Below the pieces are notes generated by a model, which was not told the DNA's origin, did not search any database, and saw only the letters and a program-made list of their open reading frames with translations. Below are positions 1,388 to 9,478 of a stretch of 32,841 nucleotides of DNA, one piece after another. Location of the stretch: NCBI GenBank assembly GCA_013297655.1, contig JAAFHV010000088.1, positions 1-32,841 on the forward strand, in the 5' to 3' direction. Origin of the DNA: Myxococcales bacterium. GTDB lineage: Bacteria > Myxococcota_A > Polyangia > Polyangiales > Polyangiaceae. Made by a program: the position numbers and the translations under genes. How positions within the stretch are numbered: the stretch's first letter is position 1; each line of letters starts with the position of its first letter.

Positions 1388-1636
1388 TCAACGATACGGA
1401 GTCGCGTCGTCGAGGGGGCGCACGGTGACCGTGACGTGGAGGAGCGTGGTCTCTCCCTGCGGCGTGGGCTCGTCGAACGTCCAGAGCACGCTCGCCACGT
1501 GGTACGTCTTCGGGTTCGAGCGCCCCGCGCGCGAGAACGCGATGCGCTCGCCTTCGCGCGGCGCGTAGGGGAGCCGTAGCTTCCCGAGCCACCGCCCATG
1601 CTCGTCGGCGATGAAGACCATGACCCCTTCGGTCAT
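1388..1636 (-). CDS. Small conserved-looking hypothetical protein (82 aa)
   Basis: I do not recognise this family. The 82-residue product has no signal peptide or membrane segment. It looks like a small all-beta domain, with alternating strands around VMVFIADEHG, YHVASVLWTF and TLLHVTVTVRPLDD. The ATG at 1636 is supported by an AGGAG about 7 nt upstream (on the minus strand), better than the second Met five codons later. The gene lies 125 nt downstream of the six-gene lipid operon on the same strand, so it could be its distal member. It converges with the propeller gene, with 4 nt between the two stops and no room for a terminator. Confidence 0.65.
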   Translation of the reverse strand: MTEGVMVFIADEHGRWLGKLRLPYAPREGERIAFSRAGRSNPKTYHVASVLWTFDEPTPQGETTLLHVTVTVRPLDDATPYR

Positions 1637-1761
1637 CGTCCGACTCCTCTGGCGCTCATCGCTCGAAGGTACGGCACGAGGGTGCCGTCGTCATGGCTCC
1701 AGGCTCGGGGCTCGTCGCGTGCTCCGTTTTGCCGCGTTTCGTCGCGATCCGCCAGAGGCCG

Positions 1762-2835
1762 TCATGGCGAAAAACCGCGACCGGGGTCGGACACGGCCCG
1801 GTTCGGGACGCCGGCGCCCTCGTCGGGACGTCCCTCGGTCGTTCGGAGGAGGGGAACCAGGGCACCGACGGCGGTCCACACGAGATGAGCAGCGTGGAGG
1901 AGCAGCGCGACGCCGACCGCGTCGGCCCGGCTCACGCCGAGGCTCGGTGCGGCGAGCGCAAAACCGCCGTCCGTCGCGCCGAGCTGGAACGGAACCAGGT
2001 CGCCGGCGGAGCTTCCGACAAGATGCACGGCCTGCCCGACGAGCCCGCGCAGAAGCGTGGCCGGCCCGCGGCTCTCGGAGGCCGCGCCGAGCAGAAGGCC
2101 AATCCCGAGCGCCTGGAGCGCGCGCGCGACGACGTGGAGCGCGAGCGGGGCCCCTGGCAAGCCTTCGTGCACTCTGCATGCGTCGCGGGTGGCCTCGAGC
2201 GTCACAAGGAGCGCCTCCGCGCGCGGGCCCGGGGCGAGCGAACGTGCGGCGCGCTCGGCGACGGAGAGCGCCCAACGGCTTCGAGACACGAGGGTGAGCC
2301 CGATGGCGGCGAGGCCGACCATCGTCGTGTGGATGCCAATCGCGATCGTGAGAGCCGACATCCCCGTGAGCGCGCACGTCGCGAGGAAGCACACCGCGCC
2401 GACCAGCGCGTTCGCGGCCAAGGCGATCGTGTGGCTCACCGCCGCGACCGAGGCCGCTTTCGCAGGGGTCGAAAATCGGGAAAGGGTCGCCGCGACGTAG
2501 GCCTCGGCGACGGTGCGCCCTGCGGGAAGCGCGGTGGTCATCGCGTATCCGACGAGGTGGGATCGGACGAGCGCACCGAGCGGGATACGAACGCCGAGCG
2601 CGCCGTAAAGCGCCCGGGTCGCGCGAAGCTCGACCGCGATCCGCGCCCCCTCGCATACGAGCACGAGCGGCACGACGAAGGCGCACCGCCCGAGGACCTC
2701 CGCCACCTCGTCGGCGCCCACGAGACGAACGAGGCCCGTCACCGCAGCCGCCGCGAGCGCGAAGAGAGCGACGCGGGCGATGCACGTGCGCACGGACTTC
2801 CCTGCGCCGGTGGCAGACGGCGCGGACGAGGTCAT
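1762..2835 (-). CDS. Multi-pass membrane protein, LPG-synthase-TM/flippase-like superfamily
   Basis: The 357-residue protein has a short polar N-terminus followed by about eight hydrophobic segments. It carries features of the lysylphosphatidylglycerol synthase transmembrane (YbhN/AglD-like, UPF0104) superfamily: an early segment with a conserved-looking EGARIAVELRATR stretch, a cytoplasmic VRSHLVGYAMTTALPAGRTVAEAY region, and a late VHLVGSSAGDLVPFQLGATDGGFAL motif resembling the family's P-x-G-x-G-x-x-E region. Family members flip or move lipid-linked substrates, or form the membrane half of aminoacyl-lipid synthases; no soluble synthase domain is attached. The start is the ATG at 2835, which overlaps the stop of the CDP-alcohol transferase as ATGA. 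It is the sixth gene of the operon. An inferred role is moving the operon's lipid product across the inner membrane. The tail after the last segment is polar and Pro/Arg-rich. Confidence 0.75.
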   Translation of the reverse strand: MTSSAPSATGAGKSVRTCIARVALFALAAAAVTGLVRLVGADEVAEVLGRCAFVVPLVLVCEGARIAVELRATRALYGALGVRIPLGALVRSHLVGYAMTTALPAGRTVAEAYVAATLSRFSTPAKAASVAAVSHTIALAANALVGAVCFLATCALTGMSALTIAIGIHTTMVGLAAIGLTLVSRSRWALSVAERAARSLAPGPRAEALLVTLEATRDACRVHEGLPGAPLALHVVARALQALGIGLLLGAASESRGPATLLRGLVGQAVHLVGSSAGDLVPFQLGATDGGFALAAPSLGVSRADAVGVALLLHAAHLVWTAVGALVPLLRTTEGRPDEGAGVPNRAVSDPGRGFSP

Positions 2836-3857
2836 GACGGATCGGCCTTCGGGGCCAGCAAGCGCCACCCGCCGTGAAGCGTCCGAGCATAGGCAACGAT
2901 CACGACGAACAGGGAAATGAAGGCACAAACGCTCGCGCTCGAAGGTACGAGAGCGGCGACCGGGAGCGGCACGAGCGAGAGCCAGAGCGTGCGCGGGAGC
3001 CCTCGCTCGCGCCCGTCGCCATGATGGCGCGCGACGACGAGGTGGCCCACGAAGTGTGCACACGTGAGGCCCAGCAGGCCGCCGACGAGCGGGCCGGGAG
3101 CGCCGAGGAGCACGAACCCGAAGAGCCCGGCGAGCGCGACTCCGAGAGGCGCGAGCTCACGTAGCGGGAAGCCTCGACGACGGGCACGAACGAGCGGCGA
3201 CACCACCGCTACCGCGTGAACGGTGACCAAAATCCCTACGAGCACGGTGCCGAACGTCACTCTCTCTCGCGACACGCGGAGCCACGACGGATCCCCGAAG
3301 AGCGCGACCAAGATCTCCACCACGACGAGCGCGGTCACACCTTCGGTCGGCCCGACGGCAGGCAAAATCAAGCGTCCCGTGCGTGACTGTTCCCAGAAGG
3401 TGCTCGCGAAGGTCAGGGCGCCGAGCAGAGAGAGCGCAGCCATCCCTACCGCGTCGAGGTGGAGCAAGAGCCCCGTCGACACGAGTACCGACGTCGACGT
3501 CACGCCGTCGAGCCCATGATCGAGGAGCTCGCCACGGGGGCTGGTCTGGCCCGTCCGACGCGCGTGCGCACCGTCGACGTTGTCGAGGGTGAGGCTCGCG
3601 AACATGCAGAGCGCGGCCAACCCATAGAGACCGGGCGCACCGCGGCTGGCGGCGATGGCGCATGCGGCAGACACCACCCCGAGGCACTGCGCGGCGACCG
3701 TGAGGGTGTTCGGCGTGATACGCGCCGGAATGTGGGCCACCATCGGGTCCCACAAGAGCCGACGATAGATTCCAATCAGCAGCGACTGATCGGTGACCTC
3801 GTACGAGGCCACGCCGCGGCGCGCTTGCGGATCGAGCTGCGAGGCTGCGAGAGTCAC
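2832..3857 (-). CDS. CDP-alcohol phosphatidyltransferase, choline/ethanolamine phosphotransferase type
   Basis: The 341-residue integral membrane enzyme carries the complete CDP-alcohol phosphotransferase signature D95-G96-x2-A99-R100-x8-G109-x3-D113-x3-D117, which binds two divalent metals and the CDP moiety. The N-terminal block (Y-E-V-T-D-x-S-L-L, then IPARITPNTLT) resembles eukaryotic-type choline/ethanolamine phosphotransferases more than the short bacterial PgsA/PssA enzymes. Length and hydrophobic segments on both sides of the motif also fit that class. The expected reaction is transfer of a phospho-alcohol head group from a CDP-alcohol onto a lipid hydroxyl, releasing CMP. The start is the GTG at 3857, overlapping the Coq4-like gene's stop as GTGA. 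It is the fifth gene of the operon. The substrate cannot be read from the sequence. Confidence 0.88.
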   Translation of the reverse strand: MTLAASQLDPQARRGVASYEVTDQSLLIGIYRRLLWDPMVAHIPARITPNTLTVAAQCLGVVSAACAIAASRGAPGLYGLAALCMFASLTLDNVDGAHARRTGQTSPRGELLDHGLDGVTSTSVLVSTGLLLHLDAVGMAALSLLGALTFASTFWEQSRTGRLILPAVGPTEGVTALVVVEILVALFGDPSWLRVSRERVTFGTVLVGILVTVHAVAVVSPLVRARRRGFPLRELAPLGVALAGLFGFVLLGAPGPLVGGLLGLTCAHFVGHLVVARHHGDGRERGLPRTLWLSLVPLPVAALVPSSASVCAFISLFVVIVAYARTLHGGWRLLAPKADPS

Positions 3858-4609
3858 GACGCCTCTTCGGCGAGACGGAGGCGGACACGGAGCGCTTCGA
3901 GCGGCTCTTCCCAGTGATCCTCCCAGCGCATCGAGAGGAGAAACCGAGCTTCTTTTCCGCGTCGATAGGCCGCGTAGGCCGCGCGCGGGAGCGAAGGATA
4001 GGAGCGCACCCACTGCATGCACCCGACCACCGCCGCGAGCCGGGGCGCCGGCGTACCGAGCTGCCCGTGGGTAAAGGCCTGAAGGAGAATCTCTCCCGGG
4101 ACATCGGGCGCATAGCCGGTGAGCACGTGCCAGATGTCGTGCGACTGCCGGAACCGCTGTGCGAAATAGGCAATCGCGGGGGGCAGGCCGGGCGGCGCCT
4201 GGAAGATGTCCGGATCGAGGGCACCGTCGAGCACGTGCTTCGCGTACGCGTGACCGAGAGTGCCCACCGCGCATCGTGAGAGCGCGCCGAAATCGAGCGT
4301 GCTCGAGTCGAGGACGGGCATGTCGCGCATGAGGTCGAGGCCCCCCGGCTCGCACAAGAAGCGGGTGAGCGCGGCGGGGACGTGGTCTCGATCGAGGGCG
4401 ACGGCGAGCACGAAGATCTGCGCCGTGTCGTTCGGATCGCGGACGAGACGCGCGAGCGCGCCGAGCGCCACCCGCGCACGATCCATGTTCGACCCGTGCA
4501 AGATCGCGTGAACCGCGTCTGCTTCGTCGGGGGCTCCGCGCGACGCCGCGTCGAAACGCGGCGGGCGCGAGGCGGAAGGGAGCACACGAGCTTCGGTGGA
4601 CGGCATCAT
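3854..4609 (-). CDS. Coq4-family protein
   Basis: The 251-residue soluble protein has the Coq4 hallmark HDxxH-x11-E: H157, D158, H161 and E173 in SHDIWHVLTGY...PGE. Upstream is a family-like GTLGHAYAKHVLD stretch (about residues 117-129). Coq4 binds a metal and prenylated quinone-like lipids, and is linked to C1 decarboxylation/hydroxylation in ubiquinone biosynthesis. No ubi or coq partner is near, and the neighbours are lipid enzymes, so a different long-chain lipid substrate is inferred. The start is the ATG at 4609 (ATGA overlap with the hydrolase gene; a second Met follows directly). Length is typical for the family without a mitochondrial leader. It is the fourth gene of the operon. Confidence 0.88.
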   Translation of the reverse strand: MMPSTEARVLPSASRPPRFDAASRGAPDEADAVHAILHGSNMDRARVALGALARLVRDPNDTAQIFVLAVALDRDHVPAALTRFLCEPGGLDLMRDMPVLDSSTLDFGALSRCAVGTLGHAYAKHVLDGALDPDIFQAPPGLPPAIAYFAQRFRQSHDIWHVLTGYAPDVPGEILLQAFTHGQLGTPAPRLAAVVGCMQWVRSYPSLPRAAYAAYRRGKEARFLLSMRWEDHWEEPLEALRVRLRLAEEAS

Positions 4610-5706
4610 GAAAACCTCGACGAAGGGACGGGAGAACAACGAGCGGAGGCGGTGGACGAGAGCGGATCGAGACCCCCTCGCGGGATCTCGGGTGGCGATC
4701 GCGGTATGGCGTCGACGAGACGATCGATCGCGCGCAGCAGGCGGCCGTGGCTCGGCTGGAGCAAGTGCCCGCCGGCGAAGACCTCGAGCTCGGCGTCGAA
4801 GTGCTTCGCGATCTCGATCGCGTGCGCGACCGGCGCGATGCGATCGCCGCGTGCGGCGAGCACGATCATGCGGTGTCGTAAGAGCTGCGAGGGGCGAGCG
4901 AGGAGGCTCGCGCCCACCGCTGGTGCGCGCGGCGGTTCCGACGATGCGAGCTGTGACCGGCACGCCGGATCAGGCACGTTCCCTCGAGAGAAATCCGTCA
5001 GATCGGAGAGCGGAACCACGGGGACCGCGAACGAGAGGCGCGCCTCCACCGTCGCGAGCAGCGCGACCAGGTAACCGCCGAGGCTCGCGCCTGCCGCGCC
5101 GACCATCGCGGCGCCGCGTGCTCGAAAGAGCTCGAGGAGCCCGCGCAGCTCGAGGACGATGCGTCGTGTCTGCTCGAAGGTGGCGATCGGATCGGGGCTC
5201 GGATACCTCGGTCGACCGTCGCTCGGCGCGCGCACCCCGTGGCTAGGCAATGTCACGAGCGCGACGTCGTGCCCACGCTGGAAGAGCCTACGTACGGGCC
5301 ACAACCATCGCTCGACGCCGTAATGTCCGCCGCGATACCCATGGACCAGCATCACCGCGGAGCGCGCCGGCGCGCGATGCAAGAAGAGCCGTGCCGCCGC
5401 CGGATCGCGCGCCGTGGTGTGCGTATCGGCGTTCCAACGCGCGTCCCACACCTCGTCCGCGAACGCCGTGCCCATGCTCGCGACGCGTTCGAGGTGCGGC
5501 TGTGGAAGCACGGGGAGCGGAAAAGGGTCGACCTCCGGCGCGAGCCCTTCGTTCGCGCGCGACCGACGAGCCAAGGGGTGCTCACTGGCGCCGGCCCGCG
5601 CGAGGCTAGGGCGAACGAGCGCCCGCGCGGCGAGGACGTCCACCTTCCCGGCCACTCGCGAAAAGGTGTCCTCGAGGCTGGCCCACGATGGCCATGCCCG
5701 CGTCAC
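4606..5706 (-). CDS. Alpha/beta hydrolase
   Basis: The 366-residue alpha/beta hydrolase has an oxyanion-hole HG (residues 122-123 in LVHGYRGGHYG), a nucleophile elbow GASLGG with S208, a likely acid D288 (AARGDRIAP) and a likely catalytic H314 (FAGGHLL). An N-terminal extension of about 100 residues, Arg/Pro-rich and without a signal peptide, precedes the fold. Such enzymes cleave esters, thioesters or amides; the substrate is not evident. Its place between the GMC oxidoreductase and the Coq4 gene suggests a lipid ester. The start is the GTG at 5706, forming GTGA with the oxidoreductase stop. It is the third gene of the operon. A non-hydrolytic role cannot be excluded, but the triad looks intact. 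Confidence 0.85.
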   Translation of the reverse strand: MTRAWPSWASLEDTFSRVAGKVDVLAARALVRPSLARAGASEHPLARRSRANEGLAPEVDPFPLPVLPQPHLERVASMGTAFADEVWDARWNADTHTTARDPAAARLFLHRAPARSAVMLVHGYRGGHYGVERWLWPVRRLFQRGHDVALVTLPSHGVRAPSDGRPRYPSPDPIATFEQTRRIVLELRGLLELFRARGAAMVGAAGASLGGYLVALLATVEARLSFAVPVVPLSDLTDFSRGNVPDPACRSQLASSEPPRAPAVGASLLARPSQLLRHRMIVLAARGDRIAPVAHAIEIAKHFDAELEVFAGGHLLQPSHGRLLRAIDRLVDAIPRSPPEIPRGGLDPLSSTASARCSPVPSSRFS

Positions 5707-7241
5707 GCGGTCTCCCTTCGGATGCGGGCAAAACGATCGCGCAGGCGCCACGCGATCCGCGTCGCGGAGGCCATGATCGGCACTTGCGCGTTCACGCCGA
5801 GAGAGCTCCGGAACACGCTCCCGTCGGCGACGTAGAGGTTCTCGACCTCGTAGGTCTCGCCGCTCTCGTCCACCACGTCGTGCGAAGGGGACAGGCCCAT
5901 CCGCGCGGTGCACAGGGGATGAAACGAGATCGACTCGAAACGAGCGCCTTCGATGGGCGAACGCGCGAGCACGCGGAGCGCGTCGACGTCGCGGATGGGT
6001 GCCTGGCCGCGGAGCGGAACGAGCACCTCTTTTGCGCCCCCCGCGAGGGCCATTTCGGCGACCGTGCAGAAGCCGCGGACGAACGCGGCCTTGTCGACGG
6101 GGTCCATGCGATAGGTAACGATCGGCTCCCGACCGAAGCCGCGCCGAACGGAGCCTCGGCCTCGATCGCGAAGGAGCCCGGCGAAGAGCGCCGTGCTCGG
6201 CACCTGCTCCACGTACGCACGATGACGCGCTCCGACGCCCGGCATGCGACTCGCCACGAGGCTCGGATCGGCGAACATGCCCAGGAGCAAAACGCCGTCC
6301 TTCACGAGGTGGTCCGAATAGACACTTTGCAGTGCTCCTTTCCAACCTTCGACGCGTGACGGAGCGATCGCGCCGACCCCGAAGCCGGGATGGAGGGTGA
6401 GGTTTTCACCGAGCGCTTTCGACCGGCGACCGAGCCCGGAGGCACGCAAAAGAAGCGGCGTGTGGAGCGCGCCCGCGGCGACGACGACCACCTTCGCGTG
6501 GACCCGAAAGGCAGCCCCGGGCGCGCCACGACTGCCGCCGAGCACGCGGCCCGATACGCCGATGGCCTTTCCTCCGCGCGTGACGACGCGCTCGACGAGG
6601 CAATCGGAGTAGACCACTGCACCGTGGGCGCGCGCTTTTCGTAAGTAGGTCACGTCGACCGATTTTTTCGCGCCGGTCGGACAGCCGATGGTGCAGCGCC
6701 CTTGGCCGGTGCAGTGCTCGACGTTCCGCCGCATGGGCGAGATCGCCATTCCGAGTCGGTTTGCCCCCGCGACGAAGAGAGCGGTCGAGCCGGATCGGAG
6801 ATTTTCACTCGTCTCGGAGACTCCGATCTCGCGTTCGACGTGCGCGAAGATAGGCTCCATTCGCTTCGGCGAGAGGTCTTCGAGGCCGTCTTTGCACCAC
6901 TCGTCGAGCACGGAATCGGGGACACGAAAGCAGACCCCTCCGGTAAGGACGGAGCCTCCGCCGACCACACGACCGGTCACGATTTGCACCGCCGGCGAGT
7001 CGCCGATTCCGAGCGCGATCGTGGCGCCCGCGCCGCGGTACATCCGGCGCGTGCTCTCCGCGAACGAGAAGCTCCGGTAGTCCTCCGGAGCGTAATAACC
7101 GCCCTCCTCGAGCACGCACACCGTGAGCCCCGCCTCGGCGAGCTCCTTCGCGACGACGGCGCCGCCGGAGCCGGAGCCCACGACGCACACGTCGACGGAG
7201 CACTCGAATCCGCCCGCGAGCTCGCGCCCGACGACGATCAT
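5703..7241 (-). CDS. GMC-family FAD oxidoreductase (alcohol/sterol oxidase-like)
   Basis: The 512-residue flavoprotein has the N-terminal Rossmann dinucleotide motif G22-x-G24-x-x-G27 followed by an acidic strand end (LEEGG). A VTGRVVGGGSVLTGG segment follows, and then a Cys-containing block (C-T-G-Q-G-R-C-T-I-G-C-P-T-G) seen in long-chain alcohol oxidase and cholesterol-oxidase-like members. The C-terminal active-site pair is His (SFHPLCTARMG) and Asn (SLGVNAQVP), the His/Asn arrangement of cholesterol-oxidase-like GMC enzymes. It should oxidise a hydroxyl on a hydrophobic alcohol or sterol to aldehyde or ketone, with oxygen or another acceptor. No Tat or Sec signal is visible, so it is probably cytoplasmic. 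The start ATG at 7241 overlaps the preceding stop as ATGA. It is the second gene of the operon. Confidence 0.9.
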   Translation of the reverse strand: MIVVGRELAGGFECSVDVCVVGSGSGGAVVAKELAEAGLTVCVLEEGGYYAPEDYRSFSFAESTRRMYRGAGATIALGIGDSPAVQIVTGRVVGGGSVLTGGVCFRVPDSVLDEWCKDGLEDLSPKRMEPIFAHVEREIGVSETSENLRSGSTALFVAGANRLGMAISPMRRNVEHCTGQGRCTIGCPTGAKKSVDVTYLRKARAHGAVVYSDCLVERVVTRGGKAIGVSGRVLGGSRGAPGAAFRVHAKVVVVAAGALHTPLLLRASGLGRRSKALGENLTLHPGFGVGAIAPSRVEGWKGALQSVYSDHLVKDGVLLLGMFADPSLVASRMPGVGARHRAYVEQVPSTALFAGLLRDRGRGSVRRGFGREPIVTYRMDPVDKAAFVRGFCTVAEMALAGGAKEVLVPLRGQAPIRDVDALRVLARSPIEGARFESISFHPLCTARMGLSPSHDVVDESGETYEVENLYVADGSVFRSSLGVNAQVPIMASATRIAWRLRDRFARIRRETA

Positions 7242-7771
7242 GACGGCCTCCCTTCTCGAATCGATTCGGGCCGCGCCCGCCGGTGCGAAGGTGTGGAACG
7301 AGCCCGACCCGCGCCGTCGATCGGTGCGCTTTCTCGTAGCACCGTGAGAACGACGCTCCTCGCACGCGCCTCACGCGTCGACGGCGAGCGCGTCTCGTTC
7401 GTCGTCGCGGGAGCACGCCCGAAGTGGGCCATCCCGAGGACCGATTTCCACACGTCGAGCGCGAGCGTGCCCGCGGCGTCGAGCGCGACGAGGTAGTCCG
7501 CCCGCTCGCGGAGCGGAAGCGCGCTCATGGCACGCAGCCCATATCCGAAGCGCACCGGGGAGAGCTCCACCACCGCGAGCATCCCGAGAAGGACGACCCG
7601 AGTCGTGCGGTTCGGGGTGCCGAGCCAGCGACCTACGTCGGACGCCAGCTCCGCGAACCGAGAAGGGGATTCGGCGGCACGTGGCTCGGGCTCGTAGAGC
7701 GCCGCGGCGAGAGCCTGCACCACACGTCGTTCGCGCGGCCCGAGCTCGTGGTCTTGCCAGTCGCGGATCAT
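7238..7771 (-). CDS. Small helical protein like the N-terminal domain of long-chain alcohol oxidases
   Basis: The 177-residue protein begins MIRDWQDHELGPRERRVVQA and continues with helices (ALAAALYEPEP, RFAELASDVGRWL, TRVVLLGMLAVVELSP). These resemble the short helical domain found at the N-terminus of long-chain fatty alcohol oxidases, where it precedes the GMC domain. Here that domain is a separate gene directly in front of the GMC gene, so it is inferred to be its partner subunit. The start is fixed by a GGAGG about 6 nt before the ATG at 7771. In-frame starts farther upstream (7843, 7882) lack a ribosome-binding site. It is the first gene of the six-gene operon and ends with an ATGA overlap. 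The C-terminus is Arg-rich. The family match is from memory of residue patterns. Confidence 0.65.
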   Translation of the reverse strand: MIRDWQDHELGPRERRVVQALAAALYEPEPRAAESPSRFAELASDVGRWLGTPNRTTRVVLLGMLAVVELSPVRFGYGLRAMSALPLRERADYLVALDAAGTLALDVWKSVLGMAHFGRAPATTNETRSPSTREARARSVVLTVLRESAPIDGAGRARSTPSHRRARPESIREGRPS

Positions 7772-7950: not shown

Positions 7951-7965
7951 ACTGGTTGAACCAGT
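7951..7965. promoter_or_regulatory. Perfect palindrome, putative operator (ACTGGTTGAACCAGT)
   Basis: Two perfect 7-nt arms, ACTGGTT and AACCAGT, surround one central base, about 180 nt upstream of the first operon gene. With one flanking base on each side, it agrees with the E. coli FadR consensus (AACTGGTCNGACCAGTT) at 13 of 16 defined positions. FadR itself is not expected in this lineage, so another GntR or TetR-type regulator is more likely. No regulator gene is adjacent. Confidence 0.5.
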
Positions 7966-8131: not shown

Positions 8132-9361
8132 TCAGTCGTGGCTCGTGGGGGCGAGGAACTCGGGCGGGGGCGCGGGGCAGTCGAGGGTGCGGAGGAAGGC
8201 GACGAGCTCGTCGACCTCGCCGCCGTTCACGTTGACGCCGTTCAAGAGCGGATCGCGGGTGCCGACCGTGGCTCCGTTGTTTCCGTTTCCATTGCGGTTT
8301 CCGTTTCCTCGACGTCCGCCGTTGTACACGTCGAGGATGAAGCCGCGGAGAGTGCGCTCGTGGCTGGCGTGGCCGAAGAAGGTGCGTTGGCCCACTCCGC
8401 GGAGGCTCGCGGTACGGAACGCGCCGCGCTGGGCGGTCTCCTGCGCGATCGAGGCGAGCTTCGTGGCTCCGGCGGCGGGCTCGTCGGAGTAGGGGCCCGA
8501 TCCGCGGAAGGGATCGTCGTGGAGTGAGGGCGCGGCGAGGAGACGGCCCTCGTCCGTCGAGGGGATCCCGATGTCGTGAAAGGCGCCATCGGAGAAGCTC
8601 GGCCCGGAGTGGCAACGCGCGCAGTTCGACTGTTCGAATACCGCGGCCCCGGCTCGCTCGGCGGCGGTGAGCTGCTCTTCTCCTCGTAGCCAACGATCGA
8701 AGCGGGTGTCGGCGCAGAGGAGCTTGCGCTCGTAGGCCTCTATCGCTTTGCCTACGTTCGCGAAGACGCGCTGTACGTTATCCCGTGTCGCCTCCGGCAT
8801 GAGTGCCCACTCCGGGGTTCCTGGCTTGGCGCGCGCGGGAACTTGGGAGAGATCGGGGAGCGCTCCGAAGACCGCTTCGTATTCGGCGCGGTAGCTGTCA
8901 CTCACGCGGCGCGCCACCTCGACGCGCGTAAAGTCCATTTCTTTCGGATTCTCGATTGCCTTGAGCGGCTGCGACCACGCCGAGTCGGCTTTTCCGTCCC
9001 AAAGCAAAAACGGGTGCATGACGGCGGCCGTGATCGGCATCGAGTGACGATCGCCGAGCTGCCCCCGGACTCCTATCGATCGCGCGCGCGGATCGGAGAA
9101 GCCGTGCTCCGGATCGTGGCAGCTGACGCAGCCTACGGTGCCGTCGGAGCTCATTCCGCGATCGAAGAAGAGGGCGCGACCGAGGGAAGAAGCGCGGGCG
9201 TCGTCCGCCACCGCGTTCGTGGGCGAAGCGGGGAGTTCGGTCGGCGAAAGTGCCATTCCCGAAAAGTCGGTCGTATCCACGTTGCGATCGGCGCACGCGG
9301 CGGTCGCGACGCCGAGCGCGACCGCGAAGCCCATGAAGGAAAACATGGCTCTGACGTTCAT
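8132..9361 (-). CDS. Di-haem cytochrome c peroxidase / MauG-family lipoprotein
   Basis: The 409-residue exported protein has an N-terminal hydrophobic segment ending at a possible lipobox cysteine (C23, VATAAC). Two c-type haem sites are visible: C78-x-x-C81-H82 (CVSCH) and C247-x-x-C250-H251 (CARCH). Residues between and after them (GRALFFDRGMSSDGTVGC, MHPFLLWDGKADS, GAFRTASLRGVG, RTFFGHA) match the bacterial cytochrome c peroxidase/MauG family, which reduces peroxide or performs radical oxidations in the periplasm. Near residues 366-380 lies an Asn/Gly-rich low-complexity insert, unusual for this family. The ATG at 9361 has a GAGG about 7 nt upstream and is preferred to an upstream in-frame start. 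It lies 117 nt downstream of the anti-sigma gene and may be in that sigma factor's regulon. Confidence 0.9.
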   Translation of the reverse strand: MNVRAMFSFMGFAVALGVATAACADRNVDTTDFSGMALSPTELPASPTNAVADDARASSLGRALFFDRGMSSDGTVGCVSCHDPEHGFSDPRARSIGVRGQLGDRHSMPITAAVMHPFLLWDGKADSAWSQPLKAIENPKEMDFTRVEVARRVSDSYRAEYEAVFGALPDLSQVPARAKPGTPEWALMPEATRDNVQRVFANVGKAIEAYERKLLCADTRFDRWLRGEEQLTAAERAGAAVFEQSNCARCHSGPSFSDGAFHDIGIPSTDEGRLLAAPSLHDDPFRGSGPYSDEPAAGATKLASIAQETAQRGAFRTASLRGVGQRTFFGHASHERTLRGFILDVYNGGRRGNGNRNGNGNNGATVGTRDPLLNGVNVNGGEVDELVAFLRTLDCPAPPPEFLAPTSHD

Positions 9362-9478
9362 GATGTTGCCTCGAGCGGAGCGGCACCTCGCGCCTTCGCG
9401 AGGTCTCTCGTGCTCCACGACAGGTACTCTCCGGACGACCCACGACCCTTCGCGAAAAAGGGATCGCGGTCGCGCTTT

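Follow-up and report, generated by a model that had tools for sequence, protein, structure and literature searches.

The closest described systems to the locus analyzed here include the CDP-alcohol phosphotransferases (CDP-APs) CHPT1 and CEPT1 of the Kennedy pathway. Glu129 and His133 of xlCHPT1 are reported to show strong conservation among eukaryotic enzymes and to be lacking in most bacterial CDP-APs, mutation of Glu129/His133 is reported to almost abolish activity, and G2ExxD3HxxD4 was proposed as an extended signature for the eukaryotic enzymes (PMC10182977). A bacterial CDP-choline pathway has been reported in Treponema denticola (PMC6805115), so finding the CHPT1/CEPT1 type in a bacterium is not in itself a novelty, and human COQ4 is reported to act as an oxidative decarboxylase at C1 (PMC11495197). 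Here we analyze a stretch of DNA of 32,841 nucleotides (the window), which is one whole contig (JAAFHV010000088.1) of the 9.9-Mb, 546-contig genome of a Myxococcales bacterium (assembly GCA_013297655.1), the sole member of its genus among 177 genomes of its order compared. It carries six minus-strand genes between positions 1762 and 7771, one of them encoding a CHPT1/CEPT1-type enzyme. The reading towards which we lean, with limited confidence, is that they form an operon for lipid tailoring, specific to the lineage and probably transcribed as one unit, put together from genes and modules which occur separately in the other genomes examined. The genes and a candidate operator upstream of them are:

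7238-7771, minus strand: small partner protein of the GMC oxidoreductase (P0001), 177 amino acids, ATG start, no Pfam family, homologue directly upstream of GMC
5703-7241, minus strand: GMC-type FAD oxidoreductase, 512 amino acids, ATG start, Pfam GMC_oxred_N 165 bits and GMC_oxred_C 63.6 bits
4606-5706, minus strand: alpha/beta hydrolase (P0003), 366 amino acids, GTG start, GASLG nucleophile elbow, weak Pfam match
3854-4609, minus strand: Coq4-family protein, 251 amino acids, ATG start, Pfam Coq4 102 bits, HDxxH-x11-E at residue 157
2832-3857, minus strand: CHPT1/CEPT1-type CDP-alcohol phosphotransferase (P0005), 341 amino acids, GTG start, Pfam CDP-OH_P_transf 47 bits, PDB match to CEPT1 with E 8.2e-16
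1762-2835, minus strand: LPG_synthase_TM-type membrane protein, flippase-like, 357 amino acids, ATG start, Pfam 35.4 bits with a cut-off of 33.4
7951-7965, no strand: perfect palindrome ACTGGTTGAACCAGT, an exact inverted repeat lying 180 nt before the first ATG, candidate operator

All six genes are intact: each opens at a valid start codon, ends in TGA and has no stop in between. They are joined by five 4-nt overlaps (ATGA at 7238, GTGA at 5703, ATGA at 4606, GTGA at 3854 and ATGA at 2832), every overlap being exactly as the original prediction had given it. Its further claim, that the genes make up one coupled operon built largely of lipid-related families, is supported. Five successive overlaps of this kind are a strong operon signature, yet they are also an ordinary arrangement in compact GC-rich genomes, and several of the families are known to act on lipids or membranes. 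The start codons agree with the positions where alignments of homologues begin, which are residues 2-6 in the best GMC matches, residues 2-5 in 20 of 26 matches of the small protein, residues 4-18 in the best matches of the CDP-alcohol transferase and mostly residues 20-30 for Coq4. Base composition is alike across the six genes (GC 0.68-0.73, GC at third codon positions 0.78-0.84). Antisense frames, favoured by a simple gene caller for two membrane genes, were overruled by homology. Terminator-like sites numbered three, against a shuffle mean of 4.4, and no description of the six-gene set was found in the open-licence literature.

The sequence of P0005 conforms to the general form D1xxD2G1xxAR...G2xxxD3xxxD4, with the signature D..DG..AR.{8}GE..DH..D at position 92, and also to the extended form G2ExxD3HxxD4, with E110 and H114 present and the residues invariant in 19 aligned sequences. 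Among PDB entries it matches CEPT1 and CHPT1, the E-value of 8.2e-16 being that of the single-sequence comparison with CEPT1, while a profile of the P0005 family scored CEPT1 at 119.7 bits versus 30.9 bits for the archaeal AF2299. By both comparisons P0005 is nearer to the eukaryotic than to the archaeal or bacterial solved members. In NCBIfam, by contrast, the top model was archaetidylinositol phosphate synthase, with 45 bits against a cut-off of 180. On the strength of the CHPT1/CEPT1 match and the Glu/His pair, P0005 would probably link a lipid alcohol with a head group supplied in CDP-activated form. In a pairwise HMMER alignment read by eye, the choline-contact residue Trp50 of xlCHPT1 aligns to W36 of P0005. 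An LPG_TM-type gene lies directly downstream of the CDP homologue, on the same strand, in 6 of 20 CDP neighbourhoods; the one of these six genes scanned against Pfam scored 81.7 bits for LPG_synthase_TM and escaped the profile built from the window-type protein, which places it in a different LPG_TM subfamily.

The GMC oxidoreductase contains both the N- and the C-terminal domain, a GxGxxG FAD motif, HPLCTARM at residue 441 and GVN at residue 482; these motifs, like those of the hydrolase and the Coq4 protein, are taken here in their familiar functional meaning. By iterated search, the small protein was found directly upstream of GMC on the same strand in all 20 GMC neighbourhoods, and when its profile was run against 7,823 open reading frames (ORFs) from 120 loci it recovered those 20 and one further copy beside GMC in L279, and none else. 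P0001 itself has no Pfam match, an 18-member alignment (A3) gave no credible Pfam or PDB match, and the structure predicted for the protein folded alone had a mean pLDDT of 45.6, too low to use. Neither search gave a sequence match to a described small-subunit family of alcohol oxidases.

For the Coq4-family protein the Pfam score (PF05019) is 102.3 bits against a cut-off of 22.9, and the H, D, H and E of HDxxH-x11-E, which we take to be the Coq4 metal motif, are invariant in the 21 sequences of alignment A2. Two further Coq4-family matches are present in the same genome. The hydrolase P0003 falls under every Pfam cut-off; it has the GxSxG motif (GASLG), and a homologue in L283 passes Peptidase_S9 (23.8 against 22.6). 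Collectively, the families named in the original prediction held for GMC, Coq4, CDP-alcohol transferase and, marginally, LPG-synthase-TM; the hydrolase assignment has a motif and a homologue in its favour, and the 'alcohol-oxidase-like' assignment of the small protein has neither Pfam nor PDB support.

For the comparison of gene order we gathered 126 neighbourhoods of up to 20 kb: 40 around Coq4 homologues, 20 each around homologues of GMC, the CDP-alcohol transferase, LPG_TM and the hydrolase, and 6 around Coq4 homologues at class or phylum level. The 120 order-level neighbourhoods were searched with all six proteins and with profiles for five of them. This sample consists mostly of best matches and is non-random, it includes paralogues from the window's own genome (L239, L254, L259, L279 and L299), and many of the contigs are short. 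In addition, a wide scan of 84,980 species with two short peptide patterns from the CDP family alignment yielded 43 CDP loci, among them L343, kept despite a match over 117 bases only, and many that are apparently the same contigs as order-level loci. The individual homologues are widespread in the order: among 183 genomes, a number that includes the window's own genome in each count, they were found in 74 for Coq4 (E<=1e-10), 37 for the CDP-alcohol transferase (1e-8), 138 for the hydrolase (1e-8), 51 for LPG_TM (1e-5), 160 for GMC (1e-50) and 25 for the small protein (0.001).

The six-gene set was found in none of the 126 neighbourhoods and in none of the 43 wide-scan loci. Conserved synteny of the six genes was therefore rejected, the five order-level anchors, Coq4 at phylum level and the CDP wide scan all being negative. 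Near the six closest CDP relatives (L301-L306, 37-43% identity) the other five genes are absent, and the neighbours of close CDP relatives differ from those in the window, such as a two-component system in L301 and L303. Only two modules recur, the small protein with GMC and the CDP homologue with an LPG_TM-type gene. The co-occurrence check that the original prediction of a conserved pathway had called for thus went against it, homologues being largely scattered and the order found only here, and for the chemistry it proposed (sterol-like oxidation, ester cleavage, a Coq4 step, head-group attachment and flipping) the family names are the only support. As far as searched, the six-gene set looks lineage-restricted and not like a conserved pathway.

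The closest Coq4 relatives have a different and recurrent neighbour. With a TetR query taken from L037, a TetR-type gene was detected near Coq4 in 23 of the 26 closest-relative neighbourhoods (L034-L059), immediately divergent in 21 and at 2.6-4.5 kb in L044 and L059; none was detected in L048, L050 and L052, of which L050 ends at a contig edge. Pfam TetR_N was confirmed in the single locus scanned, L056. Among 14 distant Coq4 relatives (L060-L073) a weak TetR match was seen in four (37-59 bits), of which two are both adjacent to Coq4 and divergent from it. Of the 6 neighbourhoods at class or phylum level, 4 (L344-L346 and L349) have a TetR-type gene near Coq4. The window has no TetR-type gene. 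Descent of the window Coq4 from a TetR-linked clade is not claimed, the tree showing a long branch and weak forks. The divergent Coq4-TetR pair, common among close Polyangiales relatives and present elsewhere in the phylum, is a separate lead.

The palindrome upstream of the operon belongs to a family of related sites in the same genome. A first pattern, ACTGGTTNAACCAGT, had 12 sites there, 8 of them with at most one mismatch, and a refined pattern, ASTGGTTNAACCAST, gave 12 sites with at most one mismatch versus 2 for the reversed control, a contrast that is inflated because the refined pattern was chosen after seeing the first sites. The surroundings were read for seven of the 12 refined-pattern sites (the window, L350 and L353-L357), the remaining five lying on contigs C57, C219, C276, C334 and C503. 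Besides the window, the sites read are:

L350, own genome, contig C546: one mismatch, about 350 nt upstream of a phosphoenolpyruvate (PEP) mutase-NTP transferase fusion (1468-3096)
L353, own genome: LGT gene directly downstream (78.8 bits)
L357, own genome: PAP2_3 gene about 150 nt downstream (55 bits)
L354, own genome: 35 nt past a gene with DAO and alpha-glycerophosphate-oxidase C-terminal domains
L355, own genome: between a GST gene and an ORF without a Pfam match
L356, own genome: neither ORF examined has a Pfam match

All seven readable sites lie outside the scanned Pfam-matching genes, a count that carries no comparison with chance for position or for the share of lipid genes. Across the 177 order genomes the motif count of 12 is the joint highest, together with that of G125, while the control counts range from 0 to 27 and in many genomes equal or exceed the motif matches, so the claim of enrichment is limited to the window's own genome. 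In genus g36, 7 of 12 genomes exceed their control (such as 12 versus 3, 11 versus 4 and 7 versus 0) and 5 do not. The TGGT-N3-ACCA shape resembles GntR/FadR-type operators. Read together, the sites beside PEP-mutase/nucleotidyltransferase, Lgt and PAP2_3 genes hint at a lipid head-group regulon under a putative common regulator. The PEP mutase-nucleotidyltransferase fusion on C546 in itself implies phosphonate synthesis in the source organism. Elsewhere in the window, a di-haem cytochrome c peroxidase/MauG-type gene (8132-9418, Pfam 137 bits) lies upstream of the operon on the same strand, and at the contig end, positions 3-119, there is a perfect tandem repeat with a period of 24 and 4.9 copies.

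In the lipid-tailoring operon that we favour, P0005 would be the product-forming enzyme: it would take a phospho-alcohol head group from a CDP-alcohol and attach it to the hydroxyl of a lipid alcohol, diacylglycerol-like or other, and the LPG_TM protein may move or present the resulting lipid. The GMC enzyme and its small partner would oxidise some hydrophobic alcohol, whose intermediates, or other hydrophobic ones, the hydrolase and Coq4-family protein may trim or bind. Expression would probably be governed through the palindrome, along with that of further lipid genes in the genome; what is said here of substrate, head group and regulator is inference. Several results weigh against this picture. 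The neighbourhoods and the CDP scan revealed no second genome with the full set, so that selection for a joint function is not demonstrated, and close Coq4 relatives are usually paired with TetR instead of the operon genes. The assignment of the LPG_TM protein (PF03706, 35.4 against 33.4 bits) is marginal. Phe186 and Glu43 of xlCHPT1 align to Leu and Gly in P0005 in the pairwise HMMER alignment, and since two of the three aligned quaternary-ammonium contacts thus appear to differ, choline is not favoured as the head group. A promoter scan found no sigma-70-like site. The first palindrome pattern, with up to two mismatches, showed no excess in the own genome (it gave 12 sites, the reversed control 15), and the motif was absent from the fetched loci of other genomes (3.43 Mb with the window, overlaps included, with 2 control matches).

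A rival reading, which we regard as possible but unlikely, is that the six genes share a promoter but have separate roles in redox chemistry, hydrolysis and lipid head-group transfer, and were joined by rearrangement in one lineage. The missing synteny fits such a neutral or loosely related operon, as do the TetR genes beside most close Coq4 relatives and the homologues of the hydrolase and the LPG_TM protein, which have no neighbour at a fixed position in at least 4 of their 20 loci each. It is less easily reconciled with five successive overlaps, with several families that act on lipids or membranes and with a palindrome common to other lipid-type genes. A conserved, undescribed pathway running from long-chain or sterol-like alcohol oxidation through ester cleavage and a Coq4 step to head-group attachment and translocation is very improbable. 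Gene content and coupling speak for it, and so do scattered partial exceptions in the synteny comparison apart from the small protein beside GMC: no more than 10 kb separates a GMC from the CDP homologue in one of the 20 order loci (L251) and, by profile search, in three of the 43 wide-scan loci (L305, L315 and L331), with L251 and L315 probably one contig; profiles also show an LPG_TM in L330; GMC profile matches in L035, L048, L065 and L292 are weak, at 20-36 bits; and six of the 40 Coq4 loci, every one from genus g36, have a GMC less than 10 kb away. A further partial exception is the own-genome locus L279, where a GMC accompanies an LPG_TM paralogue. However, the full set was seen nowhere else examined, and GMC genes are so numerous, with up to 8 strong matches per genome, that occasional proximity is expected. 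The g36 arrangement looked promising but was set aside, because its GMC proteins are distant (25-31% identity to the window GMC) and, in both loci that were scanned, Coq4 and GMC are separated by a protein kinase gene on the opposite strand.

The fusion on C546 bears on two further readings. One, with a very slim chance in our judgement, is a phosphonolipid unit in which P0005 would use a CMP-activated phosphonate supplied by the PEP mutase-nucleotidyltransferase fusion under the same operator. The presence of the fusion in the own genome and its upstream one-mismatch palindrome agree with this, and fusions of this kind also occur roughly 3 kb away from CDP homologues, in 1 of 20 order loci (L260) and in 2 of the 43 (L307 and L340), with weaker nucleotidyltransferase matches beside L309, L325, L335 and L337. 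Yet operon and fusion are on different contigs, a single site may be coincidence, and no PEP mutase match was seen near L301-L306, which hold the closest relatives of P0005. As an observation in its own right, the fusion near CHPT1/CEPT1-type genes in L260, L307 and L340 suggests phosphonolipid loci in those other genomes. The other, which we hold to be doubtful, is an undescribed lipid head-group regulon in which one operator, ASTGGTTNAACCAST, would co-control the CDP-transferase unit, the PEP mutase-nucleotidyltransferase and the Lgt-type and PAP2_3-type enzymes, which would jointly make an unusual, possibly phosphono-, membrane lipid with its alkyl part processed by GMC, hydrolase and Coq4.

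A conserved pathway would have mattered more, and that reading fails on synteny. The operon is ordinary-looking and made of known families; the parts worth following are the CHPT1/CEPT1-type enzyme and the palindrome family. If the lineage-specific operon does make a lipid, it would show a bacterium using CDP-alcohol phosphotransferase chemistry of the eukaryote type (Glu/His) in a gene setting that is new, and the palindrome offers a handle for finding co-regulated genes.

P0005 shares with CHPT1/CEPT1 of the Kennedy pathway, and with the CDP-choline pathway as reported for T. denticola (PMC6805115), the CDP-alcohol signature, the Glu/His pair and the CEPT1 match, but the six genes of the operon include neither a choline kinase nor a cytidylyltransferase, and P0005 is partnered by GMC, Coq4 and hydrolase genes. 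The window GMC protein has the domains of cholesterol-oxidase-like, choline dehydrogenase-like and MftG-like oxidoreductases, but it scores far under the NCBIfam cut-offs for these three types (93 of 850, 85 of 605 and 61 of 387 bits, respectively), and its relatives bear a conserved small gene upstream whose product matches no known family. The Coq4-family protein is like Coq4 in its Pfam domain, its HDxxH-x11-E motif and its solved relatives 6e12 and 3msq, but no ubiquinone gene is found among its five operon partners, and its relatives are mostly TetR-linked. LPG_synthase_TM (MprF-type) flippase-like proteins share with the window protein a transmembrane region over nearly the full model, but the latter scores just above the cut-off, and Pfam found no second domain in it. 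Finally, nucleotidyl-activated phosphonate pathways as described in PMC6697681 have their counterpart in the PEP mutase-NTP transferase fusion elsewhere in the source genome, which differs in lying outside the operon and is linked to it through the shared palindrome alone.

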